Source of the DNA: Ptychodera flava
Taxonomy: Eukaryota; Hemichordata; Enteropneusta; Ptychoderidae
Reading direction: 5' to 3'
Assembly (NCBI RefSeq): GCF_041260155.1
Contig: NC_091933.1
Coordinates: 22,184,599 to 22,248,598, forward strand
DNA length: 64,000 nt
Numbering within the stretch: the first letter of the stretch is position 1; the number at the start of each line of letters is the position of its first letter. The position numbers and the translations under genes were made by a program. Below, in pieces: positions 13,501 through 56,958 of the stretch. The notes under the pieces were generated by a model. The model ran no database searches. It was not told the origin of the DNA and worked only from the letters and a program-made list of their open reading frames with translations.

Positions 13501-16215
13501 GACCGAAGCTGTCAGGAATGACTCCAGTGAACGGCTTGGCCATCCCAATGATGCTATTGGTTCTTGTCGATGAGTTGAGCCATGATGATATTTCATTGGC
13601 TGCCGAGTTCAGAGAGTTACAAGAGTGGACTGTGGAACAAGCTCTTCAACATATACAGGTATACAAAATGGTATATTTACAACACTATCACATCCAGTCA
13701 GGTATTGTTTCCATGTTTGTGGTGAAACTTTTATCATTTATTCTTCATTTTAAGTCAGCTCTCTCCAAGATTTAGCACAATACTTTATCCATGTACTGAA
13801 ATTATGATGTACATGTACCTATATTTTTCAAATTTTGTTGTGATATGGCAGTTCCTTCTATGTTCTTTAAAAGTTAAGTATAAAGTTTGTTTGATTCCTT
13901 TTCAAGGGCCTTTTCAGTGCCTAATCCACACTCATCGCAATACCGTATGTGTTATCCATATTCCCCAATGGAATGTCAGTGATGATTCACAATTTTTGTT
14001 CCTGTGAAACTTATCGAAGATTCCCTATTGATGCCCTTGTGACTGAGTTCCTTTAATTCTGTTCAATGTCATTTCAACTCAACTTTCCTGACCTTGATCT
14101 TCACAATTACAGAGAGATGGAACGGTGATTTTAGAAAGTGTGTCGGTGGAGGGTAAAGAACTACCAGGGTGTCAGGGAAGACACATGAATCCAGGTGAGA
14201 GAAAAGTTCCATTATTTAATATTTATACAGAAAATCATTCAAAGAGTGTCAGTGTTTGATACCAGTACTTGAATAAGATAGTACCATTAATGTAGTTGTG
14301 TGTGTGTTCAGGTAGCCTGGTTACTCTGTTTGATGTCTAAGTCTGATAAAAATCTGACACACATTTTATCTACACAAACATTCTCTATCATTGCTCTGTG
14401 TATATTACAAAGTTGCTCCCAAAATTTGCTTGGCACAGTTGTCTTTGTTTACAATATGTAAAATTGTATATTTATAAACTAATAAACAAAAGAATCTGTA
14501 AAAAAATCCTTTGTATTGATACTAACAAGAGAAGGTAGTTTTAACAAGAACTGATGCAGGAATAACAGTGGACGTACAGAATAAATTACCGACTGATTTC
14601 ACACCAATATTTTGATATTATATTCAGATGGATTTTACCGGCTGTTCCATTTTTCTATGCAAAACTTTAGGACACGCAATCGAAGCAGGCTGGTTCCTGC
14701 TTGATTACGCAGTGAAGAACAACAGACCAGAGCTGAAAGACACTGCTATACAGAAATTCATAGTGAATCCGTTCAAGACAGGCTGGGATGAGAAACATGG
14801 CGGAATCTTGTACTTCCTTGATGTGGACGGCCTGTCCCCGACACAGCTGGAGTGGAATATGAAACTGTGGTGGCCACATAACGAGGCCCTCATCGCATTC
14901 CTCATGGCTTACAAGGAAACCGGTGATGTGACCTACTTGGAGTATTTCGCACAAGTGTTCGATTACTGCTTTCAGCATGTGAGTCAAATTTGAATTGGAG
15001 ATCTCAATTTTGTTTCAATCTCACAACAGGGGTCAAAGGTCTGAAATTTCTAATCTGACAACAAGAATTTGATGGCCTTCAGAGTTTTAGTATTCTGCAC
15101 AGAGCTACTGATTTAATTCAATTTTGAATGTGATTAACAGGTCTAGGAGGTCCAAATTCAATTCTTAAAACAGCAAACAAATGCATTTCCCCACTCTCAT
15201 ATATGTAAATTCATTTTAATTTGATTTAGACTTTACCAGACTGAGAAATAGGGTTTAGTGGATAAGGACATTGAGAAAAGAAAAGTGTTACAAGATGCAA
15301 AGATTCAGTGATTGCGTTTGTTTTGTATGTGAAATTACAGTTCACAGATGACAAGTATGGTGAATGGTATGGCTACCTCAGTCAACAAGGTGAAGTTACT
15401 CAGGATTTCAAAGGTGGTCCGTTCAAAGGTGAGCTTTCTTATTCAACAAACTGTGGCACTTGTACTGGTGAGCTATATGCTGAGCAACTCCAAGCCTCAC
15501 TTTTGCCAATACATATCGGTATCATGCTCTCTAATAAGTGAAAAATAAGAAAGTTGGCTCCTTGTAGGCCTGATAAAATCCTTCCCCTACATGAAAATTC
15601 ATAAGCCTGGAGGTGCGAGTATGGTGACAGTTATATGATATGCTACCAAATTCAAACAAAACTTGCAGTTGATCTAGTTGAAGAAGAGAATCAATATGGA
15701 TTCACTAGGAATGGTTTTGTCACAATATAGTGTCATTGTATTCATCTCTGGGTCAAGGAAATCCCGAGTGATTTGCTGGCTATTGATAGCACCAGATTTC
15801 AAAACCTGTTGGCTTAATTGTTCTGGCACATTTTCGAAATATTGGATTTCACACAAGGCCACATTACAATCAGCATAGTCCTAGGGAGGTCAATTCAGAT
15901 GCATTTATCAGGAAAAGAGCCCCTAAGATGATTGGATCACTGCATAGGACAATAAGGAATACTGGGTCCACTACTCTTCAGATATCCCATGATCCACTGT
16001 ATAATAAACACCACTGCAAATCTCACCCAGTAAGAGTAGATAGTGGATCTGATGTTATTGGTACAAACTGATTCAGAAAAAACTTCGGGTGAAAAGCACC
16101 ATCCTTCTCTGTCACTTTTACAGGCTGCTTCCATGTCCCAAGGTCTTTATTCATGTGTGAGAAGATGTTGAAGGAGATGTTGAAGACGCAGCAGAATGGT
16201 GTAGTCAACCATTGA
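10587..16215 (+). CDS. RENBP: N-acylglucosamine 2-epimerase (renin-binding protein homologue), 9 exons
   Basis: Interconverts N-acetylglucosamine and N-acetylmannosamine, feeding or draining sialic-acid precursors in the cytosol; the mammalian protein also binds renin. Exons: 10587-10699, 11715-11790, 12250-12325, 12868-13037, 13434-13658, 14113-14194, 14671-14978, 15341-15428, 16124-16215. All introns are GT-AG and the phases join cleanly into 1,230 nt (409 aa plus stop), close to the human length of about 417. Recalled human motifs match throughout: [82 protein letters not shown] and GGPFKGCFHVPR. The cysteine in KGCFHVPR (about residue 381) corresponds to human Cys380, reported as essential for activity. 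The start ATG gives [13 protein letters not shown], aligning with the human N-terminus. A possible poly(A) signal AATAAA lies at 17063. The gene appears intact. Confidence 0.95.
11166..11200. repeat. Short hairpin in RENBP intron 1
   Basis: An inverted repeat of about 11 bp, GGTAGAATCA / TGATTCTACC, with a loop of about 2 nt, in AT-rich intron sequence. Origin unknown. Confidence 0.4.
13257..13349. mobile_element. Short piggyBac-like MITE, family E, in RENBP intron 4
   Basis: A 93-bp unit bounded by TTAA at both ends, with inverted termini TTAACCCTTTCACC and GGTGAAAGGGTTAA. Same CCCTTT terminal signature as family A, but an unrelated interior. Confidence 0.55.
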
Positions 16216-19259: not shown

Positions 19260-19979
19260 GCCTATATATATAGGCCCTATATGAAATGATTTTTGTCCCC
19301 CAAATCACAAACTTTGCTTCCGCGATTACTTGTTGATAAGTCAGCGCTGTGGTGATAGACACCTTAAGACAACCACTTTTTTATTAATTTCATTTCATTT
19401 ATCAATTTCAATGTCGGTTATCCCTAAAGTCCCGTATTCACTTCAATGGCATAGCTTTTACAAAATGGCTGCATGTACGGTGGTGCACGTTTTAGAATTT
19501 GCTCCGTGTTCTCTATAATGAATTACGAACCATTTACTTCCAAAACAAACAATGACTACTGAAAAGCGTGTGACGTGGGCCTGCGCAGATACCCGGAGCT
19601 CATACCTTGTCGACGGCTAGAAGTTATTTTGTCCGTGAGTGTCACTGTACCCAAAATTTGACAAGAGCAGCAGATTTCAGACTTTCTGTCGGGCATGCCC
19701 TGTTCTGCGACGACTCGACTTCATGACCGATATCGCTTTCAAGTGTCACAGTACAAGGTGCACGATTTCCCCACCGTCAAACTTCGGTGGGTGACGATGG
19801 ATTTAATTCAATATTTCACTCTCAAACCTACGTTGACAATATGCTTTAGTAAAGTACAAAAAATAAGATCCCATCTACCACCTCCTCATCCCCCATTATC
19901 GTCACCTAGCAACAGCTTCGGATGTACCTATCGCAACCAATATTCAAATGCATCGCCCGCCACGCACGCTTGCTGTGAG

Positions 19980-20012
19980 CACAGACCCTCGAGAAAAACT
20001 CGAGGGTCTGTG
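19980..20012. repeat. CTCGAG mini-hairpin element, copy 1
   Basis: A perfect 14-bp stem (CACAGACCCTCGAG / CTCGAGGGTCTGTG) around an AAAAA loop, 33 nt in all. It is flanked by CTGTGAG on the left and CCGTGAG on the right (6 of 7 matching), a likely target-site duplication. Confidence 0.6.
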
Positions 20013-20491
20013 CCGTGAGTGACATTTCAGAATCACTGTGTACGTACGAAAAGATACCGTCCACGTCACACATATTAAAACTCATCATGCAACTGGCCAC
20101 GTAGGCATCCAACTTGACCAGTAACCACATTGATAAAAAGCCTAACAGATCTGGACTGTAAGGTATAAACGCAGGCCAAGCAATTTTATCCGCAGGTGAG
20201 AATTTTTTGTGTAAAAGTTTCCAGAAGATATGTGCTTTATAGTTTTGCTTTTGCCAGATTTCAACTTTACTTGTAAAGTTATAAACTTTGAAACTGAGAA
20301 AATTTCGCACTTACTGTTGAACACTATTGAAAAACAGGGCGAGTTCGTTGTGCCACGCCATACTGTTGTGTTATGCTTCGATTCAGGTATCTTCGCAGTC
20401 TTCTTAGGAAAGTTCTCATGATTTTGTGTGTGTTTCTCATTTCAGTTCCGGTAGATAGCGATCTTGCCATTGAATTACTACTGTAACAACG

Positions 20492-21738
20492 ATGAGTATC
20501 ACATTGTTTTTGGAGACTGTTCTTGTTCTGGCCATATCCAGTCCGGTGTACGCTTCGCGTGAGTAATAACTGAATAAGAAATTGTACCCTAGGAGTTAAA
20601 CTCTCGTACTGGTCCATGAATAAAGTCAGCGACAATTAGTCTGCCAACCTTGGGGCATCATAATGCGTCTCCGGGACAGTTATAGTTATTCGGAGTCAAA
20701 GTTTTATAAGTATGTTATTTGTAGATCTTATTTTGAAGCTTATGGGATTCCCATCTTGTTTGTTTGCTGATTTATTTGGTTTTTGAAAATCGGAAATTTA
20801 ATTTTTCTCAAGAGTTATTCAAATATCGGTAAAGTATTGGCATGTTGTTTTCTCTCGTACAAAAATTTGCCCAGTGACCATTTTTTTTAAATTACTGATA
20901 TTGAAAGAGAATGATTTGAAATTTCTACGACGAAAATTTATATCTCAATGCCAGGCAGAGGGAGAGGGTACAAATGCGTCATCCGTTGATAGTCATAAAT
21001 CCCCTACCGTGTGTCTCAATGGATTTTCGACACTTCGCATTTTGGACACACCAGGAAAAGAAACCATTTTGGAAATGTTGAGGGAAGAATGAAACGTGTA
21101 TTTACTTTGTAAATGGCAAGCTTAGGTTAGATGGGAACCGTTCTTGGCACTTTTTGTCTACAAAACAATCGCAAATTTCGAGAATTCGCCGTTTACTTTC
21201 GGATAAAATGCCATTACAAAAGTTATGTGTCTTTTTTAAACAGTAGAGTGGGTCACACATTTCAGTTGACAATTGTCATGTTTCATTGGTCTGTTTAATA
21301 GATCGCAAGCTAATCTTTGCTGAGAAGAGCTGCGATGTTTTCAATCAGGTTGTGGCTGGATGCGACGAGAACAGCGAATGCGTTGTTGGAGACTTTGGTC
21401 CCCACTGTCGTTGCCTGGATGGGTTTGTGATGGATGGCAGTAAAAGATGCATAAGTTCAGGTATTAAAGTGAGACAAAATGAATTTTCACGTTCCTTTAA
21501 AGGGAAACGGTCGTCGGAACTGCGCCTGTGCGAATTTCTTGTTTACAAACAATGTATTGCGTGCACGATATCTTGATGCACCTCATCATCATAGCTGCAA
21601 CATTTAAATATACGATGTAGATTATGACAGGCATGTTTTAACTTTCATCAATCACCATCGTACCTTTGTTAGTGTTTACATTGGTCGTATGGATCCCATA
21701 CGATCTTTGAGCACAGTTAAGTTCCCACGACTTGCATC

Positions 21739-21829
<91 letters not shown>

Positions 21830-22478
21830 AGGGAGGGAGGGAGGAGGGAGGGAGAGAGGCTGTACATAGTAGTATTGTACATACGGGTTGTCAAGGTGAT
21901 AGTTACAGTTGGTGAGTACAACTTAAGTTCATATTTCTACCCCGGAATTTTTATACGACAAATTCTTCAAGTTTTGCTGAAATCGAGTGCATGTCTCAAC
22001 TTATATATTGTTATTCGCAGAATATTTCAAGGGTCCAGAAAAAGGAGATGTCGGGGACGAAGAGCTCGATCGTGAGGATGACATCATTCTGGTGGATCAA
22101 AAGAGGGACAAACGTTCCGAGTCGCTCAAAGAAGATTGCGGTGCCAGCTGCCTGCCGGGTACGCTCATAAAACGAGCCCTGATGAGTGACAAGGAGAGTG
22201 GGAAGGTGCTTAAGAAAAGAGATGCAAAGCTTGGCTGTATCGAGGGGATGAACTGCCCGCACGATGGAATGAGAAAGCGTGAAGCCGACAAGGATTGCGG
22301 GGCAAGCTGTCTGCCAGGGAAACTGGAGAAAAGGAATGCCGATCTGAATTGCATTGAGGGTGTAGACTGCCCTTATGATAAGATGGAGAAACGCGACGCG
22401 GATCCCGATGTCGTACCTGAAATCGAAAAACGAGATGTTAAATGCATCGAGGGAATTAACTGTCCACCTCCTTTCTAG
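20492..22478 (+). CDS. Secreted EGF-domain precursor with a series of cysteine-bearing peptides (neuropeptide/hormone-like)
   Basis: Exons: 20492-20558, 21302-21460, 22021-22478 (67+159+458 = 684 nt, 227 aa). Exon 1 encodes a signal peptide (MSITLFLETVLVLAISSPVYA). Exon 2 encodes one EGF-like module with six cysteines spaced C-x9-C-x5-C-x8-C-x-C-x11-C. Exon 3 encodes an acidic spacer, then peptides separated by KR, KKR or RKR prohormone-convertase sites. One motif, DCGASCLPG (C-x3-C), occurs twice. A second, CIEGMNCP / CIEGVDCP / CIEGINCP (C-x5-C), occurs three times. The last ends in PPPF at the stop. Two products lack cysteine. No amidation glycine precedes the dibasic sites. All junctions are phase 1, so the EGF exon is a symmetrical 1-1 module. 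The layout is that of a neuropeptide or peptide-hormone precursor; an antimicrobial or mucus peptide is possible. I recognise no named family. Confidence 0.8.
20775..20960 (+). repeat. Dispersed repeat family B, divergent partial copy
   Basis: Lies in intron 1 of the peptide-precursor gene. It shares an ordered set of short matches (TTTTTGAAAAT, ATATCGGTAAA, AAAATTTGCC, GTGACC) with the longer copies at 25199 and 61934. Non-coding. Confidence 0.4.
21498..21745 (-). mobile_element. MITE family C, copy 1 (intron 2 of the peptide gene)
   Basis: About 240 bp, inverted relative to the copies at 28254 and 59627. The end AAAGGGAAACGGTCGTCGG is intact; the opposite end is diverged and abuts an (AG)n tract. 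The shared interior includes GACAGGCATGTTTTAACTTTC and the GGTCGTATGG block. Confidence 0.6.
21743..21846. repeat. (AG)n microsatellite
   Basis: A long uninterrupted GA tract followed by GGGA-rich sequence, in intron 2 of the peptide gene next to the family C MITE. Confidence 0.9.
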
Positions 22479-24003
22479 GGCCAAGGACAGGACACAGGTA
22501 CCTGGAATTGCTAGTGTGGTATACATAGAGAGAAGGGCTATGTACATGTACACTACACTGACACCATTGCAACTAATTTGGGATAATTGGATCTTGAAGT
22601 CATATTTTCCAAATTTCTAAAAAATGTTAGGTGCCCTATGGCTGAATGTTGCAATATTACAAATTACTCATAAAAACAAGGGTGTAACTTAAAAAGAAAA
22701 GCAGATGAGCTGACATTTGCAGATTAAACCAGCATTACTTCACCATCCAATTGTCCCAAATTAGTTCCAATCGAGTTCACTGGCAATTCCAGGCACCTGT
22801 GGGACAGGATATTGCGGGTATACAATGAAGCTACCGCAATGCGTTATAACAGCTCATACAACGGCAAATTTAAATACAAATTATAGAGTTCGGTAGTTGA
22901 ACACCTATCCACATTGTAGGGGGTCTGAGATTTGTTTGTACAAAAAGAAATTCGATGATATCTGCGTGTCGTAAGTTTACTATTCGAACACTGATGGCGC
23001 CCTGCAGTAGACGCTCTTATGTTGGCAGAATTTCCCCGAAACATCGTGAGTACAGTAGTCGTAGCACAAATACCTTTGAACAGTTATGATTTATATCATT
23101 AATCCATAATAAAAATATGGCTGGAGACATTTGCAGCTTAGCTTGTGTTCTGTGCAAGAGGAATGTCATCTATAAGGATGACGAACGAGATGGACAAGTA
23201 TACTTGGCAGTTTTCCATATTGCTGGTATACTCAGTTTGCTGGTTAACAATGGAGTCACGTGATTTGGACTGCTGTTGAATTCATGTAGGTTAATTTATC
23301 AAGGTCCAAAAATTGCTATATAATTTTGGAAAATATGGCCGAGACAGCATTTACAATTTAATACACTTTTACAGTAACCAGTTTTCACGACAAGCAAAAT
23401 ATGAAATGTTCCTGACCTATCTCCCGATAAAAAAACTTATTTTTCTCACAGATAAAGCTACTTGTTTTTCTGTGCAGGTAAATGACTATAGATACCTTGA
23501 TTGTCCGACACAAAACAACAAAAGCCTTATCAAAATTTGTGCTTGACAAGGTCTACAGACTTTCATTCGATCTTGCTGGCATACAAGATGGACGGAAGAA
23601 AAAGCACTGTCGTCAGCAAGCACAGTTGGTCTTTATCACAAGATCTTTATTTCCTTTGTTAATGTAACTGTTGAAGAAATGACAACATATCACTTGGAAT
23701 TTAAACAAACACTGCATGATTTACAAGCAAAACATGATATTCAGCTAGCGAGTCGAAGCTTTGCTGTACTTAAAACTATCAGAATGCCTTGCTCTGTTCA
23801 ACTATGAAAAGCTATCGGTGTGTTCATGATTTCATTAGGAATCAGGTGGAAGTGTCACAGTTGAAATATTATTTGGCAATAAGTATACTCTAAGGTGAAG
23901 TTTAGTCAGTTGTGAAACCCTGAATGTTTCTTTTACACTGTCAAGCCCTATACGCCATCCTACCCTGACTTAATATACATAAAGCAAAATTCATGCAAAC
24001 TCA
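22479..24003. other. Peptide-gene 3' flank, no further gene seen
   Basis: A candidate AATAAA occurs at 23108. The rest is AT-rich with no recognised exon or element. Confidence 0.4.
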
Positions 24004-30500: not shown

Positions 30501-33500
30501 ACTTTTGGAAGCTAAATATCAAATTTCAAAGTTGACACAAAAATCCAGTTTCACTGCTGAAATGATTGAAAACAGTATTTCATGGCCAGCATTACATTCT
30601 CTCAGCTCTGCTGGCCATTTGGAGGACAGATCATAACAAACTCATACCGGTGATAGGACCAGGTGACATGCCAAAATTTTTCAACTCTTCTGCAAGTTCT
30701 CTGTCTGACAAGTTCGCCACCTCTTTCTCGATCTCGATGTCATCCCTGTTGATGGTTCTCTGTGCTTTCTTTGTGGCTTTCTGCAGATAAAAAGACAAAA
30801 AGAACCAACGATGAAAATGGTCACTGTGTAGTGGGTATCCTGATTTTGTCATTTCAAACACAATTAACTTTGGATGTATTAGCCAAATAATTGCTGTCAC
30901 TGGCTTTACAATGTGAGCAACCTGTGGTGTGTAGCCCGCATGCCACATTTCTGCATTTCTCAGATAAAGCAGACAAGCGTGTTTTGGTGACTTACAACAT
31001 TTCTGCGAGCTTTGAGTCAATTTTGAAATCGCTGGAAATACATGTACCTTCGTGTCAGCTGTATGCCAGGACACGTAATGTGAAAAAAGTTTTTGTGTCG
31101 AAAAAACCTTTCTCACTCCAGTGACTCATCAGTTCAGTGTACCGAAAGCATACTCGTACAAACATTACATTCAACTGACCAGTTTCTTAACTATACCATA
31201 GACCCTCAAAAAAAGTTTTTCTCGAGGGTCTATGACTATACGAACATACTCCAGCAGTATTACATATGGTGTAGGTGCATAAAAATCCTATAAATGAGAG
31301 ATCAGAACTATGTAATTAAGAGAGCACACTGATGTAGAACTTGGAAAGATCCCCTTACAAACATGTACAGTCCACTCATAGTAGTTTCCATGTAAATGAG
31401 AGGTCAAAACTGGTCTTTAAAAAATTTACATAACTGTTGATAATTAAACATGCAAATCATATGCAAATCAACTTCATTTCCAACACCATGGCAATAAGAA
31501 AGAAAGGAATGAAGAACCACCTAAAGTTTTGTCTTTTGTCTTTGAGCATAGACCCTCGAGAAAACTATTTCTCGAGGGTCTACCGGTATGCTTCTAGTGA
31601 CTGTTTTGCAGTGTACAGAGTTTGAGGAGATCAAAATTTCAGGTATTTCAATGTAAAATTCTGTAACTTGTTGCATCTAATACTAGATTTCCTCAATAAG
31701 TGTATTCATTTACGCAAAGTGTATTCATGAATATTGTTTGAATATGCAAATTAACTTATGTTCATAAATGACAGATTTTATCATCAATGGAGAATAATGA
31801 TCCACCTAAAACTGAGCATCATGGTCCTTGTTGTTAGAAATATTATGTGCTGAATATTATCTGTCCTTTCGGAATCTCTCTCAACTGAAAACCAGACATC
31901 TCAGTGAGAGCTCTAAGCCCATGGTGTAAACCTTTGCTGCTCAGAGCATGCCTTCACAGCTGATCACTTACAACAAAGTCACAAGGTTGCCCACCCATAT
32001 ACTGCTACTGCTACTGCTAGGAAGTGATGAATTTCACAGGGCAATCAACAAGGATCTCAATCAAACCAAACTAATGAGCAACGAACACAATCATGTCACT
32101 TTTCCTGAACTGCTCTTTCTAACTGCATACTCCTGCTTTATCAAAATTGGGTAATTCTGGAAATAAGCCAGACACTGAAATCAAACTGAATTATCACATG
32201 TACGTTCAAGTTTGAAAAACAGTCACTGATATGCATCATTTCCTTCTGTATTGATCTACTGTTACTATATCAGGTGTGTTGCAAAGTTTAATTGTAGAGA
32301 AAGACAAAAAATAACTGCACTATGTCACCAATAATTTTGGCAAATGTATACGGTACCTGTAAATTAAGTTTAAATACATATTTGTCATGTGGCACAAATT
32401 GAGCATTTATAAAGCTTGATGAACGTTCCTTATTATCACCTTTCTGAACCTTATTATATTGCTGGTAGTAAACATGAAAAAAACGCCAACAAAATTGAAA
32501 CACACACTTCAATGATATCATCACAACGTCATTCTTGATCTGCTTGTGGTAAGTTTATAATTGTTTTTAACCAGTCATTCAATATGTTGCATTAAATTTG
32601 GAGAAACATGGATATCTTTGATTATGTTGCATGGTTTTATCTGTCAAATAAGCTCGAGATTATACTCTGGGTGAACTTTACAGAATTATTTTATCATTTC
32701 TCAGTGGTTTCCTCATTGCTGAGATGTCTTTATTTCATGATATCGACACAGTTGCTGTTTTATCGGGCTGCTGGTATGTGAGGTAATTGTACTATATAAA
32801 CATTACATGCCGAGTAAATGCTTGCTCTACTAGAATCATGAGAATGAGATTTGGCTTAAATGAAACCTATGTGTGATGGTATGCCATACATGTGCATGGA
32901 TTGGGATTTTCATTCAGTACTGGTAGATATGGAAGAGACCAGAATGGTTGGCCTGTGGTAGCCAACTGCTTACTGGACATGGCTAAATTTTTTAAAAATT
33001 CACAAGCACTTCCAGGCTCAGTCTTGCTAAAAGTCAGTTGGCATATAAATATCAAAATACAATAAACTGAGGGAATAAACATTGAGCAGGCTGTCCTGTT
33101 AGTGACAGACTGCTGCATAGAACATGGGGTGAATGCGATAGCCCACACTAGGCTAGCCAATAACTGCTGCCAAGAAGAGCCAAGCGACGGGGGCCAGTCT
33201 ATTACAGGCCATGAATTCACAGAATTTCAGAATTGCTACTATATTCAGAAAAAGTTAACAAAGAGTGAAATTTCATCAGAATAGTTGACAGCCATCTTTC
33301 TATTAAAAACAAGAATTATGAAGGTAATATGTAGTAAACTTTTAAAAAACATAGGGCCAACGTCCCTGAAGCTGCTATAGACATGGATACAAAATTCAGT
33401 ATTTCCCGACTGTATGAAATCATCTCACTAAGGTCATCCTAGGGACCTGTATACATAATATTAAAGCTGTCTGACCAGCGGTTTTGAAAAAATCCAAGCA

Positions 33501-45500: not shown

Positions 45501-47978
45501 GCATTCTCAATTTGCAGGGAATTGAAAACATGTCACTGTGCTTCTTTACACATCTCAAAGTGTAATACTCTGCATACAAACTGAATTCTATGACCTATTC
45601 AACATATCCTGTGCATTGAGTGAAATGTAAATACGGCCGCCAATAGACTCTAGCTCTTCGAGGGTCTATGGTGCAACCAATAATGTTGAAAAGAGAAAAA
45701 AAAAGCAAAACAAATTGGTTGATAGAGGTTTTTCTGATGCTCAAACACATTTTCCAAGAACATAAACTCTTTACACTCATGTCATCCTTGATTAACATAA
45801 ATGAGCCTGCTAAATTGCAGTTTCTTTCTACAGTTTTGTGGCACGGTCCCTCCACAAAGACCTGGGGACATTTTACCAACATCATAATGAGCGGTTTCAA
45901 ATAGGGTTTCTGTGCTTGAGGGTGTACCATTAACATTTCAAAAGGTGCAAATTTGCATGTTGAGGGTCTTTGACACTTCCATGCACAAAGTCCAGACGTG
46001 TAAAGTTGTTGTTGTTTCTATTGTTTATAAATTATATGAAACTATCTGTGGGGTACAGTGCCCCTGTTCTGGGCAACTTGGTATAAACTGGGCGGCAGCT
46101 GTGACCTTGAATTTTCTCTAAGGGATCTACACTGGAGGGATGAGGGGTTATCCAAGTACCGGATTTTGTAAATGCACCAGGGTTTACAATTTACAAATAT
46201 GGCTATTCACTGATACCTCACCTAAACATGTCTGTAAACAATGTGCCACCCTCTTGTTGGCACAACATTACATAATTCCAGTTATGTTTAAATCAAAATC
46301 TCTTGGAATCTGAAGGATAATCCCTTGCTAGCTTGGCCATAAAGCAACAATCGTGTGTTGACAACCAAGTGTGGTATTTTCAATTAACACATTGTTTATA
46401 CAATGTTATCGCAATTAACAGTTAGGCTACAGCTGTCTGCTACCTGTTGATCGCAAGACGGTTCCCTTTCAAAAATGCTGAGGGAACGACAAGTGGCCAT
46501 TTAATAAATACTAGGCATAACGCCGAAATGCAATAAATATGAAAGAAATAGATCGCCTTTGCCTTACATACACTGCTGGTGTGACCTTCATCAACAATGT
46601 CATTTGACATTGTTGGCGAATACCTTGTGCTGAGTGTTGCGGGACCATTAATTCAAGGTAAACAGCTATTGAAAAGCCTCGATACAATGACAGTTCGATG
46701 CCTGCATTGTCGATGAAGAATATGCAGCGCTGGTGATTTTTCAAGAAGATACGAATTTGCATGGCATTGTTGCCGCCAGTGTCCGAGCTAAATGAACGCA
46801 GCTATCTCTGTATACTGAAAGGGTCACGCTTGGTCATAGTACTCACGCGATCTGAAGCTTCACCGATAAGAACACGCTTCTCTGGTGTGCGAGCTTTGGA
46901 TATCGGTTGAACAAAATGCATAACAACAAGTCCGCAAGCTTGCGTTTTGAGGATAAACGATCCTCAAGGCCGAATTATAAACGTGCCGTACCCAAGTTGC
47001 TTTCCGGACGTATTATTATTAACTTGTCAATTTTCTATGAAAGCCGCGCATTCATAACGGCAGTTTTTAAAGTAAATACTCGCTCGTTCACGTGAAGTGC
47101 CGATGTAACTTATCGGAATATCAACATTTACAGTGTGCCAACATGTTGAGCTGCCTTCAACAATATTTATTCCATGGCTACGGAAAATTATGATGATAAA
47201 GACCACTGCGTCAAAATTTTGTTGATAACATTTTTATGTTGTTAGTATTATATCGTGGTCTAATGCCAAGATAACATGCCTTTCTAGTTTCTACGCTCTT
47301 TTCTACCCATAATTTAATTCGAAACGTGTACAGGTTATCAGTTCGAAAAATATTTATAGCGCTGAAGACATTTCTTTCATAATCAACCATTATATTACAT
47401 ATCGCGTCATCATAGTATTGATCAAATATCCTTCGTGCTGGCGATTTGTACTTCACTTCAAAATGGCGTTGAGCTTGTTCAAACTGTGAACTGTCACGGT
47501 CAAAGGGCCAGGCATCATATGGGCGTTCACTCATTGCGTACTAGTACCTGTAGGCTTTTACCACATGTTTACAATTTTCTAACAAACGCGCCGTATAGCG
47601 CGTGCAGTGGCGCGGCCGGCGGTGAGATGGGACCATGCCGACCAAGCACATGGCGATCGATCATCTGAAAATTACAATATCTATATGAAATAATTTCCAC
47701 TCGATGGATGATTTGCAATGCGAGGGCAATGAACCAACCTTTTGTTGGACCTTTCGCACAGGCGTACTTTCTTCATCACTGGAAAACTCCGACTTTAACG
47801 GTGAATCCCCATCGCCACCGGGCTGGATGTTCCGGAGGGGAGTCAAATGCTTCAAGTACAACTTCACGTACGTATCTTTCCTCGCGTCGCTTGGAGGTAG
47901 TCCGATGTTGTGCGCAACAAGATCACTTTTCAGACGTTCTTTTGTGAGACTTGCGGGATCGTCAGATATTTGAGGCAT
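27531..47978 (-). CDS. TMPO: LAP2/thymopoietin-like LEM-domain inner nuclear membrane protein, 5 coding exons
   Basis: A LEM-family protein expected in the inner nuclear membrane, tethering chromatin through BAF and contacting lamins. Exons in transcript order: 47978-47739, 30780-30648, 29991-29884, 29317-29272, 27852-27531; 849 nt, 282 aa. Residues 1-50 form the LEM-like domain (MPQISDDPASLTKERLKSDL, RKDTYVKLYLKHLT), matching the human LAP2 start MPEFLEDPSVLTKDKLKSEL. A FSSDEESTPV linker also matches. The BAF-binding LEM domain is at about 100-139 (LSDRELAEELKNFGMSPGPI, then YERKLVRL). An acidic Ser/Asp linker and a basic segment follow. One transmembrane helix lies at about 237-258 (LIPVFVQIIILLLVALFIFL), resembling the tail of LAP2-beta, with a short lumenal tail. 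The protein is compact, like the smaller vertebrate isoforms. Exon 3 is symmetrical (phase 1-1). The first intron is 17 kb. It shares a promoter region with APEX2. Confidence 0.9.
28254..28495 (+). mobile_element. MITE family C, copy 2
   Basis: About 242 bp in LAP2 intron 4, with inverted termini AAAGGGATACAGTTGTCGG and (inverse) AAAGGGAAACAGTCGTCGG. Its right end abuts the long foldback element starting at 28498. Confidence 0.7.
28498..29171. mobile_element. Foldback element with ~270-bp inverted repeats
   Basis: The left arm (28498 to about 28770) and right arm (about 28905 to 29171) are nearly identical in inverse orientation, with a handful of mismatches and small indels. The loop is about 135 bp. 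Outer ends read AGTACATTTACC / GGTAAATGTACT. It lies in LAP2 intron 4, immediately left of exon 4. No transposase is present. The arms' high identity implies a recent insertion. Confidence 0.7.
29506..29728. mobile_element. piggyBac-like MITE, family A, copy 2
   Basis: A 223-bp unit bounded by TTAA, with ends TTAACCCTTTAAGCGC and GCACTCAAAGGGTTAA. It lies in LAP2 intron 3 and is similar throughout to the copies at 154 and 51508. Confidence 0.75.
31190..31241. repeat. CTCGAG mini-hairpin element, copy 2, with perfect 7-bp flanking repeat
   Basis: A 38-nt hairpin (31197-31234; CATAGACCCTC ... GAGGGTCTATG) is flanked by ACTATAC on both sides (31190-31196 and 31235-31241). The exact 7-bp direct repeat indicates insertion with target duplication. 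Confidence 0.65.
31547..31582. repeat. CTCGAG mini-hairpin element, copy 3
   Basis: Stem TAGACCCTCGAGAAA / TTTCTCGAGGGTCTA around a short CTA-type loop. No clear flanking duplication. It lies 313 bp from copy 2 in the same intron. Confidence 0.6.
33390..34440. repeat. Tandem array of ~145-bp monomers
   Basis: About six to seven diverged monomers, each with GGCAAAAATT, AAAATACAAAATTG, AGATTTCATC, CCTAGGAACCTGTATAC, AATATCAA and a TTTTTGAGAA block. Monomer starts are near 33604, 33747, 33896, 34041, 34176 and 34320, with a further diverged monomer before 33604. The array runs directly into repeat D. Frames on both strands are by-products of the repeat. Confidence 0.75.
34436..36170 (+). repeat. 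Repeat D, copy 1, interrupted by a hAT-like insertion
   Basis: 34436-34735 plus about 36147-36170 align, in order and orientation, with the uninterrupted copy at 37166-37482. Shared blocks include TGCAGGATTGGTGTACATTC, GAAAGACCCCTAAA, CAGTCTGTTCAGC and TATATCACAACTTC. Confidence 0.7.
34736..36146. mobile_element. hAT-like non-autonomous element inserted in repeat D
   Basis: About 1.41 kb with inverted ends CAGTGTTTCC / GGAAACACTG, a terminal sequence typical of hAT elements. The paralogous uninterrupted repeat at 37166 defines the insertion point. CCTAT occurs on both sides, a partial target duplication (an 8-bp one is expected for hAT; decay or misplacement by a base is possible). Internal frames at 34719-34973 and 35061-35390 have no recognisable transposase domain. 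Confidence 0.6.
37166..37482 (+). repeat. Repeat D, copy 2 (uninterrupted)
   Basis: A direct repeat of 34436-34735/36147-36170, ending in an inverted TATCACAACT / AGTTGTGATA hairpin. High similarity, several small indels. Confidence 0.7.
37560..37700 (+). repeat. 3' tail-like dispersed repeat ending in a hairpin
   Basis: ACGGACATACATACACACAT-type sequence, then GGACGCCGGACGGATACAC, then a terminal stem-loop (ATAGACTA / TAGTCTAT around TACCCCCGG) and CTAA. A 3' stem-loop followed by CTRR is reminiscent of Helitron ends, but no 5' end was identified, so the class is unresolved. Confidence 0.35.
45640..45671. repeat. CTCGAG mini-hairpin element, copy 4 (degenerate)
   Basis: CCAATAGACTC ... CGAGGGTCTATGG: the outer stem is retained and the core has decayed relative to copies 1-3. 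Confidence 0.45.
47211..47534 (-). CDS. Small ORF in LAP2 intron 1, unrecognised
   Basis: An ATG-initiated 107-codon frame on the LAP2 strand, about 200 bp downstream of LAP2 exon 1. The product starts MSERPYDAWPFDRDSSQFEQ, is rich in charged and aromatic residues, and continues EVKYKSPARRIFDQYYDD. Its composition looks more protein-like than nearby frames. I could not identify the family. It could be a nested single-exon gene, an alternative exon, or chance. Confidence 0.3.
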   Translation of the reverse strand: MSERPYDAWPFDRDSSQFEQAQRHFEVKYKSPARRIFDQYYDDAICNIMVDYERNVFSAINIFRTDNLYTFRIKLWVEKSVETRKACYLGIRPRYNTNNIKMLSTKF

Positions 47979-48289
47979 GTTCATCAATTTGAAAGACAGT
48001 TCTAGGTAATGGATGTGAACAGAGATAGAGCACGGCTGGGACAAATTCTCCTACCAAGAAATCAACCCGCCACAACAGACGCCACTCGGTGAATGTGACG
48101 TTTACAGGGATTGGCTATTCATTCAGCCCGTGAAGGACGCTCATCGCCGTAATACACCAATCAGAACGAGCCATTCATCACTAAGATGCGCATGTGTAGT
48201 GACCCACGATGTCTTGACCCATATGATGTACAACCACCGTCCATTCCCTTTGCTTTGATAACATTTGGTAACATTCTCACAAATTGAAG
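47979..48289. promoter_or_regulatory. Bidirectional LAP2-APEX2 promoter region
   Basis: 311 bp separate the two divergent start codons. Visible motifs: ATTGG (CCAAT on the minus strand) at 48110-48114, CCAAT at 48157-48161, TGACG at 48096-48100 and an NRF1-like TGCGCATGTG at 48187-48196. There is no obvious TATA box. CCAAT and NRF1-type motifs are common in short bidirectional promoters of housekeeping and DNA-repair genes. Factor binding is inferred. Confidence 0.6.
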
Positions 48290-51048
48290 ATGAAGATACT
48301 TTCTTGGAATATCAACGGACTGCGCGCGTGTAAAACCAAACTCGAGAAATTGTTTGAGTCATTGGACGCAGATATAATTTGCCTACAAGAAACAAAGATC
48401 ACACGTACGTACATCATCGTTGCGTTGTTGTGCTTGTGGTGTAAACTTCCGGTTTGCCACTTGCACTGTAGTCTGTACACTGTACAGTTACACCACACAT
48501 ACATGCACGCGCTGCATTACTCTTGTGCCATTTCCATCTTGAACGAACCACCCGTAAACCCAACACTGCAGGAAATGCTGATATGTGTCGTATAAGTGCT
48601 ATTTTACTGAGTCGTTTGCGTGAAAGAGAAAACAATGTGTATGCAGTCATGAGCGCGCGTGCTTGTATGACGGGCATGTCTCAATCACTATCAGTGCATA
48701 CTCCCTGGATAACACCACCACTTTTTGTATGCATGGTAACACTAATCTGTTATTGCAGTCATCTTTAAGGTTCAGCTTCAGGATCCACATGGTTGCTATA
48801 TTTGCACTGCCTGTTTTATTATTGTCATTGTCCAGGATTAAGTATAGAACAATCGGAAAAAATGCTCATATGACATTTCTCTTGTGTGTGTGACAGTATA
48901 AAATACACCCCTACACGTAAATGTTGTCTGCTTTTCCCTCGCGACACACTCATCGGGCAACACGTCATCCCGTCCCGGTATATTCATTTGTAAGCATAGA
49001 TACTTGAGAGGGTGTATAGTAGAGGAATGTATGATTTATATTCCAAAGTTTGACACACAAGAATAGATCTGTCAAGTTTCAATTTCTTGTCCACACTCAC
49101 AACAACATCAAAATGAGTAACAACAAATAAACATTAATTTAATTAATTGGCAATTTTTGATGTTGTACAGATGGTCAGTTAGATGAAGCCTCGGCCATAG
49201 TTGATGGCTACAACTCATATTTCAGTTTGTCAAGGGGAAAGCAAGGTTACTCAGGTAAGAAATGTTCCTTTGGCTCTGCAAGGTTGACATGCCAACCCTA
49301 TTTCATGAAATGCAGTATGGGGCAAGGGTGGTATATCCTGGTAATGGAAACTCACTTTCATGGTGAGACACATGTAATTTAAGCTGGATGATAACGTTAT
49401 TGCCATGCTTTCGGGTGCCTGCAACGCCTGATTTAAGGAACTGTTAACCCTTATATCCTGCCACTTACCCATCTGCCAAGTCTGTAAAAAGTGTTATGAC
49501 CTAATACCTTTACGCACTTTCGCCTACTTGGCGTGGTATGTTATGGTAGGTTTAGTCAGTAAAAAAATTATGGGAACTGTAACTATGTTCTATGAGGCCT
49601 TCAAATGTTCAACTCTTTGTTAAAATGCAACCTATGGGACGTTGTCTGTAAACAATTTGACCCAATGGTGACATATGAACTTGACAGGATAAGGGTTAAT
49701 GAATATATACTTGTTATCCTGATATTGTGATATTGCAATGGCACCCTTGCCTTTTTGTGTATGTGCAGGAAATATTGTCAATTTGATCTGTGTTTCTGCA
49801 AAATGAATTTTTCAGATTAATGATATCACTCTTTACTGATTCAAGGTGTGGCAACTTTCTGTCGCGATAGTGCATCGCCAATAGCAGCTGAAGAGGGTTT
49901 GACTGGACGACATGCAAGTAGTGCTGGGAAGGAAAAAGTTGGTTGCTATGGTGATCTCACTGACTTCACAGATGAAGAGCTGCAGAGCCTTGACAATGAG
50001 GGCCGATGTGTCATCACGGTGCATAAAATAAAGTATGTCTCTTTTTATAGAATTTAATTTATACTCACACTGCAGATAGGAAACGGTCAATGCTTTTTTG
50101 AAAGAAATGACATGCACTGACATAAAGAGATAGCAAAGTTTGGCCAATGTTAATGAATATGACAGTCTTAAGCTTCATTACAGGGTACTCATATACAAAA
50201 TGTAATTTGACACTAGTGATGCGAAGTGCACATAAAGTTTTCAATGCAAACTAAAATGGTTTTCATAGAGCCTCATCCCTTACCCTAACTCTGACAACTC
50301 CCTAGGATGCTGCAGTCCAGTGTGCAAGTCTTGAAGTCTAGTTTGCTAGTCCTACAGTCTGCTACCTGCAGTTTAATTAACTAACCCAATAGTGTGTTAG
50401 TCCTGTAGTCTGGTTTGTTAGTCCTGCAATCTAGCTGCTAGTCCTGAAGTCTAGTTTGCCAGTCCTGAAGCTTAATGTGTAAGTCCTTTTGTCTAGTTTG
50501 CTCGTCCTGTGATCTAGATTGCTAGTCCTACATACGTTTGATATCATACAAATACACTAATATTCATTACATTATCAGACTATAGACCTTTCTCACGGCC
50601 CCCTTGCTGGCTACGCACTGCAGCTGGTGTAACCAGGGTCAGCAAGGTGGCATAACCTTTTTAGGCTATGCTGGCTTGTGATGAGTCAGTCTACACCAGC
50701 CATAGTGTGTAGCCAGCAAGCAGCTGTGAGACTCTAATCAGACCCGTGCAATGGGAAATTCATAGATCTGAGCATAATATTTCGTGGTCTTCGACCTTCG
50801 ACCACTGGATTGCTCACCCCTGTGATGCATAATTTAGGAATAAAGTTTAGATTTTATATTTAAAATTGTTGAGGTAGTAGTGTGCTGTTGACTTGTCTAC
50901 GGGCTACTGCTGTTGCCCTCATATACTGGTAAAGTGAGATGTATGGTGTTACCATGCAACTTACAGGATTATTATTGCTCTTTAGAGGTGCACTTCATGG
51001 TGGAAGGTCAATAGCTATATATGTATAAATAGATAAATAAATAAATAA

Positions 51049-51112
<64 letters not shown>

Positions 51113-54100
51113 TGTTTATTTGAGTGTTTTATTTAGCTATTAAACCGTGTTTTACTTATCTTTACTTTTTATTTCTCAACAGGGATAGTTCAGGTAACGA
51201 ACGTGAAGTTGCAGTAATGAATGTTTATTGTCCTCGCTATGATTCTGAAGATGAGAAGAGGTTGCGCTTCAAACTTGATTTCTACAAACTCCTTCAAAAG
51301 AGGAGTGAAGCACTGCTCAAAGCTGGAAAGTAAGTCTTTCTTCTTGCTCCATTTTCATCACTTTGTATGTCCAGGTGTTGTAGGAAAGTGACCCGCCCCT
51401 CTCCCACCAGACACTTACCCAAACTCTGGTTTGAAATGTCTATGTGGTGAAGCTCCATGTGATAACTGTCCTGATACACCTGTCCATGATTTGTGGTAAT
51501 ACTTCGTTTAACCCTTTGAGTGCCAAAGTCAATTTTTGTTGCCTTTATAAAATTTAGCCCAGATTTTTTTTTCAAATTTGTCCAAAAATTTTGATCAGAA
51601 ACTGAGATGTATAAAAGCGATGTCTGTTTTATCCAAAGTTATCAAAAAATTACAGAAAACTTCATAAATATTGGAAAATGTTGAACTAAATGGAATAATT
51701 ACAGCACTTAAAGGGTTAAAAAGAATAAGGATTTATAATGGCTTATATGGCTTTGTTGAAAGTAGATAAAAATTTTTGGGCTTTTTGGGGTGAAGGGGGT
51801 AATGGTATGGCAATTGATTAACAGAAAAGTAGATTTACATAGAAGTTAAACGGAATGAATCGACTATTCTGAATGAGAAGTGTGTGTCTTGCAGTTAGTG
51901 AATTGTATGATATGAAATGTATTCCGAGTGGGACACAGGTAAGAATGTACTTTGAAGAAACAAGTACGTATTAATATCTCCGCTATCTGAGACAAAGCAA
52001 GCCCACTGAAGTAGCCATCAAACTGCCTGTCAGATGACTCAACCTACCGGTACTCCCATCAGTGATCTGATAGTTTTCCTTGTATTTCAGGCATGTTATT
52101 ATCCTTGGTGACGTAAACCAATCACACAAACCCATCGATCACTGTGAACCAGATGACAAGGTATGTCAGTCAAAATTTAAGTCCTGCCAACATTTATGAT
52201 GTAATTATAGCATTTCTGCTCAAAATTGCAATATCACGCAAACCACCATGTACCACTTTTTGTACCGTCCCTCATGGCTCATGCTAAATTGAATGAGGTT
52301 GTTGTTATGAAACCTCCAATTTTGTGGTTCCTGGTTCTCCCCATATGCGAGATGAGCTGTGTGTTTTAGATAACCATTCCTTCAACAGAATGTTACATGT
52401 GTGGTCCCTTCCTTTCTTAACCAATGCCCCCTTGCATCAATGTGAAGTTAGGGGGATATACAAATTTGTCTCAAAACCCTTGAGAAAACACTGCAACAAG
52501 TACCAAATATGTCAAATTGGCAACTTCAAAAGTGTTCAATCTTTTGAATGGGATTCATCTATTGTTTTGTGTGTGTGTACTGTCTAACTCATATTTTTTA
52601 AAGTCTCTGAACTGTAAATAGTCGTTGATGGCCATGGCAGTTTTCAACGGTTACCAATCCAAGATCTCAAACACTGTGTTTGTTAGAATTGAAGTTGCCA
52701 TTTTAATATCGGTCTCCTCGCACATAGTTCCCCTCTGGCAGTTTTAGTGTCAGGTCTGAATCTCAGCCAAGAGGTTCTGTCTAGACACCTAGTGTGTGAG
52801 TATAGCAGTCAATGTGTTTACTTCCATACCTTATTTACATAGTTTGTCCTTGCTCACTCTATGATGAACTCTATCCACCATGTGTTGTGAGTTCTGGTAA
52901 TCCAGTAATCAGTGGGTAGTTGTTGTGTGTTACGATACATTACGTAATTGTTGTTTGCATTCATGTGGGGGGATCTGTTCCATTAAAAATAGCAGTGTCA
53001 TGATTTCCCTTTATCAAAAACCTCTATAGTATGGTAATTTGCCTGTTGTTCACTAATGTTTTGACGGCTGTTTGCCTGTTCTGTAGGCACGCGACATGAT
53101 GTACTTCACTCTGTTGTGACATGTAGCATACCCAGTAGATTCATTTATATTGCCTGTATTTACAAGTTCATTATTAATCTGGCGTGTCTTTTCCATTTTG
53201 ATGGTTCCTTCAAAAGAGCAATCACTTTGTTTTTCTGTTTCTCATGATGTACCACAGCTCGCTGTGATATATTTTACTGTAAAATTTACTGTAAAATTTT
53301 CTCATGCATTAATTCTTTTCTCTATGAATGATTAGGTACTGACGTCAATTTCAGACCATGCCATGATTGAATTTGTGTGTTGCAATATACCTAATAAATT
53401 TCCTATTTTGTTTGCCAGTCCTTTTAATTTTTGTTATTTGTTTTTTTTGCAATTTGGGTATTTTATTTCACTGTACATTCCATGCATCGATTTAGTCCTA
53501 GCATTTGAATCTGTTGAGCTTTACTTGTGAATCATGTTAAACTTGTTTAATGATACTTGTTACTGATTCAAAATTAAAATGGTGCCAATCTGTGTCATGA
53601 TTATAAGCATCTCCAGAATTTGTAAGTTTTTGTCTGCCAGTGACAAGGAAAGACTATAAACTCTACAGTAAAAAGGGATTTCAGGAAAATCAAACATTTA
53701 CAGAAGTTTGTATTCAAGAATTACATTCCTGTTAGATTTATGCTTACGGCTTGTATCTTATGTCTCTTTATCTAGAGATACTTTGAAGCCAAGCCTGGTA
53801 GGTATTGGTTGAGTCAGTTTCTCTGTGAGCTCACAGAGGATGGGAGACCAATCATTGAGAAAAGGGACTGCCCCGGGACTTCTGAGTCAGAGTCGGACAG
53901 TCCTGAAAAGGGTTCTGGAAAGGAAAAATCCGGTGGCCTTTTCATCGATACTTTCCGGTACTTCCATCCACAGCAGACAGAAGCGTTTACATTCTGGTCA
54001 ACGCAAACGTCAGCAAGGCAGCTGAACTATGGAACCCGGATTGATTACATAATTGCTGATATTCCGCTCTGCGAGGAGATTTTTGAGGATTCAATGACCA

Positions 54101-54927
54101 TGCCGGACTTTCAAGGCTCGGACCATTGCCCCGTGAAAGCCACATTGAATTGTACAATCATTGCGGCCAAGAGATGTCCATCCCTATGCACAAAGTACAT
54201 GCCGGAGTTTGCCGGGAAGCAGCAGAAACTGTCGGCATTCTTTTTACCAATGAGTAAAAAGCCAGCAACTCAAGAAAAAGCTGCATCATCACAGAGCCAT
54301 GTCCCTCCTGAGGACAAACGTACCAAAGAAACAAAACTGCCTGTCGAAAAGGAATCAAGTTCAGGGGCAGGCAAACAACCTCTGAAAAGGAACAGTTCCA
54401 ACGTAAAAGGCGGCCCAGTAAAGAAGCAAAAGACAACTACAGATGGAAAGACAAAACACGCTGGAAAGATCTTCAGCTTCTTTCAAAGGAAAGAAAGTAC
54501 TCCCAAAGTTGCCAAGCCAGAAGGAAAATATGAGGACAGGCAGTCATGTGAGCCTTCAGAAAAGGGCTTATCGGAAGATTCAATCGAAAAAGTATGTCCT
54601 GCAAACAACACAAGCAGTACTTCAAATGATGAATGTAGCACCTCTCAGAATTTGGACAACTCGTCGGGGGCATCCAGGCTATCCCAAAGTTCTGCAGAGG
54701 AGTGTGAAGAGAGGAAGAAATCGCAAGCAGCTCAGTGGAAAAATGTCCTCCGTGGTCCCCGGCCACCACCTCTCTGTAAAGGTCACCAGGAACCAGCCGT
54801 TTTGAGGACAGTGAAAAAGTCAGGACCGAACTATGGCAAGCAGTTTTACACATGTGCGAGACCAGAGGGCCGAAAAACGGACAAAGAAGCTCGTTGCGAT
54901 TACTTCATCTGGGTGAAAAAGAGATAA
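48290..54927 (+). CDS. APEX2: AP endonuclease 2, isoform ending in exon 6A
   Basis: A nuclear exonuclease III-type enzyme with AP-endonuclease, 3'-phosphodiesterase and 3'-5' exonuclease roles; it works with PCNA and, through its GRF finger, on single-stranded DNA in the ATR-Chk1 response. Exons: 48290-48404, 49171-49254, 49846-50032, 51183-51329, 52091-52160, 53776-54927; 584 aa. Landmarks: SWNING (N7, N9), LQETK (E34), NVYCPRYD, GDVN (D185, N187), LNYGTRIDY and GSDHCPV (D318, H319). A PIP-box QQKLSAFF is at about 350-357, and a weaker GKIFSFFQRK lies where human APE2 has its PIP box. A C-terminal GRF zinc finger spans about 531-584 (CKGH, TCARP, RCDYF). Relative to the human protein there is an acidic Ser-rich insert of about 25 residues after EKRD. 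The start is the ATG at 48290. It is divergent from LAP2. Confidence 0.93.
49444..49699. mobile_element. piggyBac-like MITE, family F, in APEX2 intron 2
   Basis: A 256-bp unit bounded by TTAA at each end. Termini TTAACCCTTATATCCTGCCA and the inverse of TTAACCCTTATCCTGTCAA are near-complementary. Confidence 0.6.
50318..50532. repeat. Minisatellite of ~22-bp units, APEX2 intron 3
   Basis: About nine degenerate units on the theme TTGCTAGTCCTGCAGTCTAG. Confidence 0.75.
50588..50735. mobile_element. MITE-like imperfect inverted repeat, APEX2 intron 3
   Basis: Ends CTCACGGCCCCCTTGCTGGC and (inverse) CTCACAGCTGCTTGCTGGC, continuing into CTACRCACT and GCTGGTGTA on both arms. About 145 bp, non-coding. 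Confidence 0.5.
51029..51110. repeat. (AAAT)n/(AT)n microsatellite
   Basis: Short ATAA units followed by a long AT tract, in APEX2 intron 3 just before exon 4. Confidence 0.9.
51508..51719. mobile_element. piggyBac-like MITE, family A, copy 3
   Basis: A 212-bp unit bounded by TTAA, with ends TTAACCCTTTGAGTGC and GCACTTAAAGGGTTAA. It lies in APEX2 intron 4. Confidence 0.75.
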
Positions 54928-55708: not shown

Positions 55709-56958
55709 TATAAATCCATGAAGTGTTTTAAAGTTGTTCACTGACTTAATTTCCCAGTCTTTGTCTCTATACGAGATGTAAAGAGTGCTGGTCTTACACA
55801 TATCTGGGAAGTTATTTTATTAAAAATTCTTGGTATTGTCTTCTGATTTCTATTTACCTCTCATAAACAAAGTTACCGAAACTTGAAGCACTCTCTCTCA
55901 TGCACCAAGAAAAAGTGTCAATTTAAAAAATTACATCTCACATACACAAAGCTATCATGGGAACACCACAAAGTATTTTTGTTTTTTGTGTAAAGGCCCT
56001 TGAATGCAAAGGATCAATGAATGGTTATTTTTAAATTTTTTAAAATTGATTTACAAAATATTAGGCCACAGAATCATGTGCAAGTAAAAATGAGTGGATC
56101 CACGTCTATCCTACAACAACTCTCATTAAATGGAATCTATTAATTTGTTCAGGCTAAGTATATTCTGTAAAAATTGCTGTTTTTTGTTTGTCAGAATGGC
56201 TGCGATGGATGGCTAATCGCATTACTGTATTTTGCTATAGTAAACCTTTATGTTAATGTATCTGCTGTTTGCCTGTGTTTCGACGGCCATCCAGCCGTTT
56301 AGTAGGCATTGAACATATGCTACATTCTGTTGAAAATAGCACATCTGGTTTTAAGTGTATTGCCTCTGTACAATAGTTCAGTAATCTTGTGATTTTTGTT
56401 CTTATCAGAGTCCATTATATATTGAGTTTTCTTCAAAAGAGTAATTACTTTGATTTCTCGTGATGTATCACAGTTTTTGGCAATAAATTTCGTCTCGTAT
56501 TACATGTGTAAATATTTTCTGTATACACACATGTTGACATAAAAGGCCAGATTTTTTCATGATTTGTATGAGAGATGTGTCAATCGAGTTTTTCCTATTT
56601 TTTTGTCTGTCTTTTGATGTTTGTTGTTGGTGTTTTGCAATTCTGTTATTTATCACAGTATACATGTCATATATTACACCCCTAATATAGGAATCAGTTT
56701 AGCTCTATTAATGAATCTTGTTAACTGGTTAAATTGATATATTTTTACTCATTCCCAAGTGAAAATGGTTCTTATGTCTGTCATGTCTAGGGGCATCACC
56801 AGACTTTGTAAGTTTTGTCAGGTATGATGGCGATAAACCATCACCCCTTGAGGAAAATGAGGGGCGATTGGAAAACTAATAGTATCAGATGTATTTTATT
56901 CAAGAAATACGTCACAGTTAGATTCATGCTCACAACTTGTACTTTTTGTCTTTTGCAG

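Follow-up and report, generated by a model that had tools for sequence, protein, structure and literature searches.

The gene at positions 20492 to 22478 of the Ptychodera flava window (Hemichordata, Enteropneusta, Ptychoderidae; the whole stretch of 64,000 nucleotides analysed here) encodes a secreted-type protein in which an EGF-like module is followed by a dibasic-delimited series of short peptides with two kinds of two-cysteine motif. We favour the view that multiple copies of two cyclic, non-amidated signalling peptides are cut from this precursor, which is known so far from two hemichordates only. Judged from its sequence, the gene very probably specifies a processed, secreted multi-peptide precursor and is probably an undescribed animal signalling-peptide gene; the balance of the data leans towards a signalling system.

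Splicing of 20492–20558, 21302–21460 and 22021–22478 on the plus strand yields 227 amino acids plus a stop codon, and both introns are of the GT-AG type and in phase 1. Exon 1 (20492..20558) carries the start codon and the predicted signal peptide (residues 1–22) and ends in phase 1 at a GTGAGT donor. Exon 2 (21302..21460) bears the single EGF-like module and is a symmetrical phase 1-1 exon, a type which can be shuffled without a frame break. Exon 3 (22021..22478) comprises an acidic spacer, convertase-type sites, the ring peptides and the stop codon. The donor of the second intron, GTATTA, is weak by eye. A protein search retrieved a public P. flava ‘uncharacterized protein’ (NCBI/UniRef) which is identical to the splice product across 227/227 amino acids. 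The sequence-only reading had postulated a three-exon, 227-residue protein with a predicted signal peptide and an EGF-like module ahead of the peptides; the length is reproduced by the splice, the annotated protein is identical, and both the hydrophobic N end and the six-cysteine pattern were found. The peptide exon is overlapped on the minus strand by an antisense open frame (22014–22616, 201 codons), probably a by-product of codon composition.

The most hydrophobic 11-residue stretch of the P. flava protein covers residues 5–15 with a mean KD value of 2.59, and that of the Glandiceps protein (see below) covers residues 6–16 with a value of 3.25; the best stretches starting past residue 35 reach 1.36 and 1.12, respectively. 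The hydrophobicity profiles thus exhibit, in both species, the signal peptide expected of a prohormone precursor. The EGF-like module extends from Cys33 to Cys72 (21331–21450, plus strand) and contains six cysteines with the spacing 9-5-8-1-11, including the C-x-C between the fourth and fifth cysteine of the EGF pattern, and the spacing of 9-5-9-1-11 in Glandiceps is nearly the same. Pfam matches of both proteins are of the EGF type only and all sub-threshold (E up to 10 for P. flava and up to 0.1 for Glandiceps), the top P. flava match being EGF_MSP1_1 with an E-value of 4.8e-5, under its cut-off. At E up to 1, the PDB contained no match to the P. flava protein. A profile built from both EGF modules weakly matched eight PDB sequences (E 0.06–0.55), among them an inducible metalloproteinase inhibitor (E 0.06) and six LDL-receptor chains (E 0.22–0.55).

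The peptide series is divided from the EGF module and the spacer by the sequence RDKR (22104..22115, residues 104–107, plus strand), which we take to be a furin/convertase-type site according to the R-x-K-R rule. Seven units follow on the plus strand, separated by KR, KKR or RKR sites: A1 (SESLKEDCGASCLPGTLI, 22116..22169), b0 (ALMSDKESGKVL, 22176..22211, residues 128–139), B1 (DAKLGCIEGMNCPHDGM, 22221..22271), A2 (EADKDCGASCLPGKLE, 22281..22328), B2 (NADLNCIEGVDCPYDKME, 22335..22388), a3 (DADPDVVPEIE, 22395..22427, residues 201–211) and B3 (DVKCIEGINCPPPF, 22434..22475). Five of them contain exactly two cysteines, whereas b0 and a3 contain none. The motif DCGASCLPG with a C-x3-C ring is present in A1 and A2, its core CGASCLPG in A1 being the same in Glandiceps, and the motif CIEGxxCP with a C-x5-C ring is present in B1, B2 and B3. 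Both motifs thus occur in exon 3 as often as first read, twice and three times in a dibasic-delimited series, each in a unit of its own. A strict alternation of A and B, as also claimed from the sequence, does not hold, as the rings run A-B-A-B-B, unless both cysteine-less units are decayed rings. Four ring units are flanked by dibasic sites at both ends; the fifth, B3, spans from a dibasic site to the stop codon and therefore requires no trimming of its C end. The ring units are 14–18 residues long and all five are acidic (pI 4.1–4.5). None of the listed units begins with Gln or ends in Gly, and since no Gly precedes a basic site the peptides would not be amidated. Units starting with [D/E/N/S]-[A/V/I] after the first convertase site amount to 11 of 17 in the two species (5/7 in P. 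flava, residues 143–227, and 6/10 in Glandiceps); the x-Ala starts in P. flava could permit trimming by a dipeptidyl peptidase, as in some other precursors.

The arrangement was compared with chance expectation. Exon 3 contains eight KR pairs compared to a mean of 1.26 in shuffled sequences, and at least eight were reached in none of 20,000 shuffles of the exon-3 residues; likewise, none of 20,000 such shuffles contained a repeated 8-mer, and the longest exact repeat of nine residues compares with at most seven among 5,000 shuffles. When ten cysteines were placed randomly onto eight exon-3 units, every cysteine-bearing unit received two of them in 1,127 of 200,000 placements. In the six frames of the window, the patterns CG[AP][SG]CLP and C[IL][EDN]G-x(2-3)-CP do not occur beyond the five units, and no paralogues were detected within the window at E up to 1.

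Besides the P. flava entry, the protein searches yielded a single protein, LOC144441524 from Glandiceps talaboti (Spengelidae), an ‘uncharacterized’ protein of 291 residues with 35% identity to the P. flava protein over 85% of the query, both proteins being database annotations. Its layout is the same: a hydrophobic N end is followed by an EGF-like module and then by dibasic-delimited two-cysteine units. These units number eight, three of the C-x3-C type (two with the core CGASCLP and one with CGPGCLP), four of the C-x5-C type and one of the C-x6-C type; one further unit carries a single cysteine, and an additional C-x3-C (CDFVC) is located ahead of the first RKR. Seven of the eight ring units are acidic; together with those of P. 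flava, 12 of 13 fall within pI 4.1–4.5. The exception is the first Glandiceps A unit, which in its dibasic-delimited form is strongly basic (pI 10.8) and speaks against a uniform product unless it undergoes further trimming. Because Glandiceps shares the layout, the arrangement probably dates back to the divergence of the families of Ptychodera and Glandiceps. A third relative was not detected at E up to 10 in the protein searches (266, 4,480 and 1,418 candidates), which require shared exact words of five residues; more distant relatives, for example in Saccoglossus, echinoderms or chordates, could escape such searches and the family may thus be wider than it seems. Repeated dibasic-bounded peptides are conserved in the one orthologue available. 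The conservation between orthologues on which the sequence-only reading had staked its proposal is therefore real for the layout, the ring cysteines and the dibasic sites and breaks down in some units, which have lost cysteines. Rings are lost readily, as cysteines are absent from two of seven units in P. flava and Glandiceps has a unit with a single cysteine.

Identity between the two species is concentrated in the rings. The cores of the five matched rings are identical at 33 of 38 positions, compared to 11 of 43 in the flanks within the matched units, 14 of 40 in the EGF module (one gap column excluded; 8 of the 14 are non-cysteine positions) and 10 of 30 in the spacer, and the whole matched units including flanks reach 44 of 81. 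The cores differ from flanks, EGF module and spacer with a Fisher p below 1e-5 each, a test inflated by the bias that the cores were chosen as motifs. Less exposed to this bias is the comparison of copies within P. flava, where the flanks were compared for the A copies. The nine-codon core of the two DCGASCLPG copies contains five base differences, all of them synonymous and none non-synonymous, whereas the seven flanking codons show pN values of 0.72 and 0.50 on the two sides. In the B cores, pN is 0.05–0.13 versus a pS of 0.92–1.03. Selection thus seems to have preserved the rings. At default settings, the repeat search of 22000–22480 reported no direct DNA repeat, and a recent tandem DNA duplication as origin of the repeat is accordingly not supported; since, in addition, the cores differ little at non-synonymous sites, the peptide repeats resemble old copies that have been maintained in their amino-acid sequence.

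Assignment of the individual units between the species is partly feasible. For the cysteine-less unit a3, the best alignment partner is SVAEQNDCGPGCLPEIEVE, the third Glandiceps A unit, with a score of 28 against 16 for the runner-up, and a3 is probably a decayed A ring. Unit b0 sits where Glandiceps has its C-x6-C unit, and the alignment score of −3 does not support b0 as a decayed B ring. In the four top-scoring assignments shown, the A series keeps its order, A1 and A2 favouring their own positions by a margin of only 5 score units each. Two of 144 assignments exceed the score of 265 obtained when all seven units are matched in order; positional orthology of all units, the B units in particular, is therefore not supported.

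For cleavage, ring closure, release, receptors and function we infer the following scenario. The signal peptide would direct the precursor into the endoplasmic reticulum, where the EGF module would fold and each cysteine pair would close to a small disulphide ring. Subsequently, convertases of the furin/PC2 type would cleave the RDKR, KR, KKR and RKR sites, and a carboxypeptidase would trim the basic ends of every unit except the last. This would liberate small cyclic peptides of two kinds, for the most part acidic: A with a five-residue ring (CGASC-LP) and B with a seven-residue ring (CIEGxNC-P). They would be released together because both derive from one precursor. We take A and B to be the two ligands of a system of paired signals, and their receptors would most likely be G-protein-coupled. 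As its spacing is unlike that of ErbB ligands and its conservation lower than that of the rings, the EGF module probably has a role in folding or sorting, in analogy to neurophysin in other precursors.

This scenario has to be weighed against other uses of the same protein. The peptides could be cut in the same manner and released onto skin or proboscis as secreted defence, deterrent or mucus peptides without any role as signals. Such a function would fit to acorn worms, which are rich in mucus, and to a gene which the protein searches found in two hemichordates only and which varies in copy number and ring number between the species, one Glandiceps unit even being basic. However, antimicrobial peptides are usually cationic, whereas all five P. 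flava and all but one of the eight Glandiceps ring units are acidic, and the A core CGASCLP, identical at two positions across two families, better suits a receptor ligand than fast-evolving defence peptides. We consider a defensive or mucous function rather unlikely. The original proposal of a peptide-hormone precursor is partly supported: the dibasic two-cysteine design recurs in a second family, and its products would be hormones or other secreted peptides.

It is also conceivable that the EGF module itself constitutes the active ligand or a matrix-binding part and that the peptides of the KR-rich tail, which would then be a spacer or pro-region, lack any function of their own. The almost identical cysteine spacing in both species and the symmetrical phase 1-1 exon are compatible with this idea, but the far lower identity of the module compared to the ring cores and its deviation from the ErbB-ligand spacing make it improbable. 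A misjoining of an EGF exon and a peptide exon from different genes, which might be suspected from the weak second donor and from exon joins taken from annotated models, can be regarded as extremely doubtful, given the identity of the annotated P. flava protein, the phase 1 of both introns and an annotated protein of another genus with signal peptide, EGF module and peptides in the same order. Within the preferred reading of a precursor of two cyclic signalling peptides, we finally speculate, with very little confidence, on a hemichordate-born twin-ligand system: an EGF module shuffled on its phase 1-1 exon into a secreted-peptide gene, the B peptide with its [N/D]CP exit being a convergent or a divergent version of the vasopressin/oxytocin ring and acting via such a receptor, and the A peptide acting via a separate one.

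Several further features were noted in the window. Just past the stop codon, a long hairpin is formed at 22493–22801 by two nested inverted repeats (24 nt with 92% and 43 nt with 84% complementarity), which fall within the putative 3′ UTR; the predicted RNA fold of 22470–22830 has a z-score of −5.16 and none of 100 shuffles was as stable. A search of the window with an E limit of 0.01 revealed no second copy of the hairpin, which might represent a fold-back element or a double-stranded RNA feature within the transcript. A perfect 15-nt inverted repeat with a 5-nt loop is located at 19979–20013, some 480 bases ahead of the start codon; its 14-nt arm pattern has five matches in the window versus 0.14 expected, two of them being its own arms and the others lying at 31221–31234, 31547–31560 and 45657–45670, and it is probably a small dispersed element. 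A domain scan of the neighbourhood, covering 9 of 210 open frames, identified a piece of a GlcNAc 2-epimerase (14616–14990, plus strand), a thymopoietin/LEM-type domain (47664–48050, minus strand), the N end of an exonuclease-endonuclease-phosphatase (48272–48592, plus strand) and a pair of long, mutually similar open frames (53776–54924 and 56812–58101, plus strand), both of which terminate in a GRF zinc finger. The latter are probably duplicated terminal exons of a gene which we presume to be APEX2-like.

Hemichordates stand beside chordates in debates on the origin of nervous systems and, to our knowledge, their peptide signals have mostly been identified by resemblance to established families. 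Searches of this kind would miss a precursor that combines two ring types with an EGF module, is shared by two enteropneust families and differs from the peptide families tested. The A and B peptides would offer ready synthetic ligands for orphan hemichordate receptors as well as cell-type markers, and the precursor would show the shuffling of an EGF exon feeding a peptide precursor.

That the protein matches no recognised family, as initially stated, agrees with our comparison: no Pfam family scores above its cut-off in the P. flava or the Glandiceps protein, and the features tested for vasopressin/oxytocin-type, NG peptide/CCAP, calcitonin-type and ErbB-ligand proteins are lacking. The secreted EGF/ErbB ligands resemble it in the single EGF module behind a signal peptide. 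Their cysteine spacing of x7, x4-5, x10-13, x1 and x8 is, however, different from 9-5-8-1-11 and 9-5-9-1-11, and the P. flava module is less conserved than its peptides. CCAP has a C-x5-C ring and shares it with the B units. The precursors of NG peptides combine repeated peptides with a cysteine-rich domain, neurophysin, according to the excerpted text of PMC4772807, and are similar in this respect. In contrast, the P. flava peptides carry no NG or PF motif at their start, no CCAP motif and no amide, and the precursor no neurophysin. Calcitonin-type peptides also contain a small disulphide ring, which is N-terminal, and mostly a C-terminal Pro-amide (PMC6002491, in excerpt); the P. flava peptides have neither an N-terminal ring with a long tail behind it nor an amidated C-terminal Pro, and no unit ends in P-G.

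In the open-licence literature exclusive of supplements, six peptide strings have no match, and the literature matches listed contain, in their titles and abstract beginnings, no EGF plus neuropeptide precursor of such design; the same applies to the excerpted texts of PMC10508912, PMC4772807, PMC11452194, PMC8557429 and PMC6002491, which describe no such precursor. Related elements are present in Ambulacraria. Expression of the convertase PC2 has been described for the hemichordate Saccoglossus (excerpt of PMC10508912), and precursors with KR-bounded peptides, single-disulphide peptides or a cysteine-rich accessory domain include those of asterotocin, MCH-type and NG peptides (excerpt of PMC4772807). 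The unclassified Arnp precursors of starfish, as presented in the same excerpt, are likewise orphans, from the sister phylum, with possible disulphide peptides; Arnp24 with its two-cysteine peptide differs from the P. flava protein in yielding a single amidatable peptide, and the main text of that paper does not contain the term EGF. The likeness to the vasopressin/oxytocin type, exemplified by starfish asterotocin (CLVQDCPEG-amide; PMC4772807, in excerpt), consists of a single-disulphide ring, an [N/D]-C-P exit in all seven C-x5-C units of both species, and a cysteine-rich accessory domain within the precursor together with a dibasic site. The hemichordate proteins deviate from it in several respects: instead of the C-x4-C ring with P-x-G-amide they have C-x3-C and C-x5-C rings (C-x6-C once, in Glandiceps), the B ring being one residue longer and devoid of an amidation Gly; a C-terminal neurophysin domain is missing, EGF-type matches being the only ones in Pfam; and the P. 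flava precursor is multi-copy, with a second type of ring.
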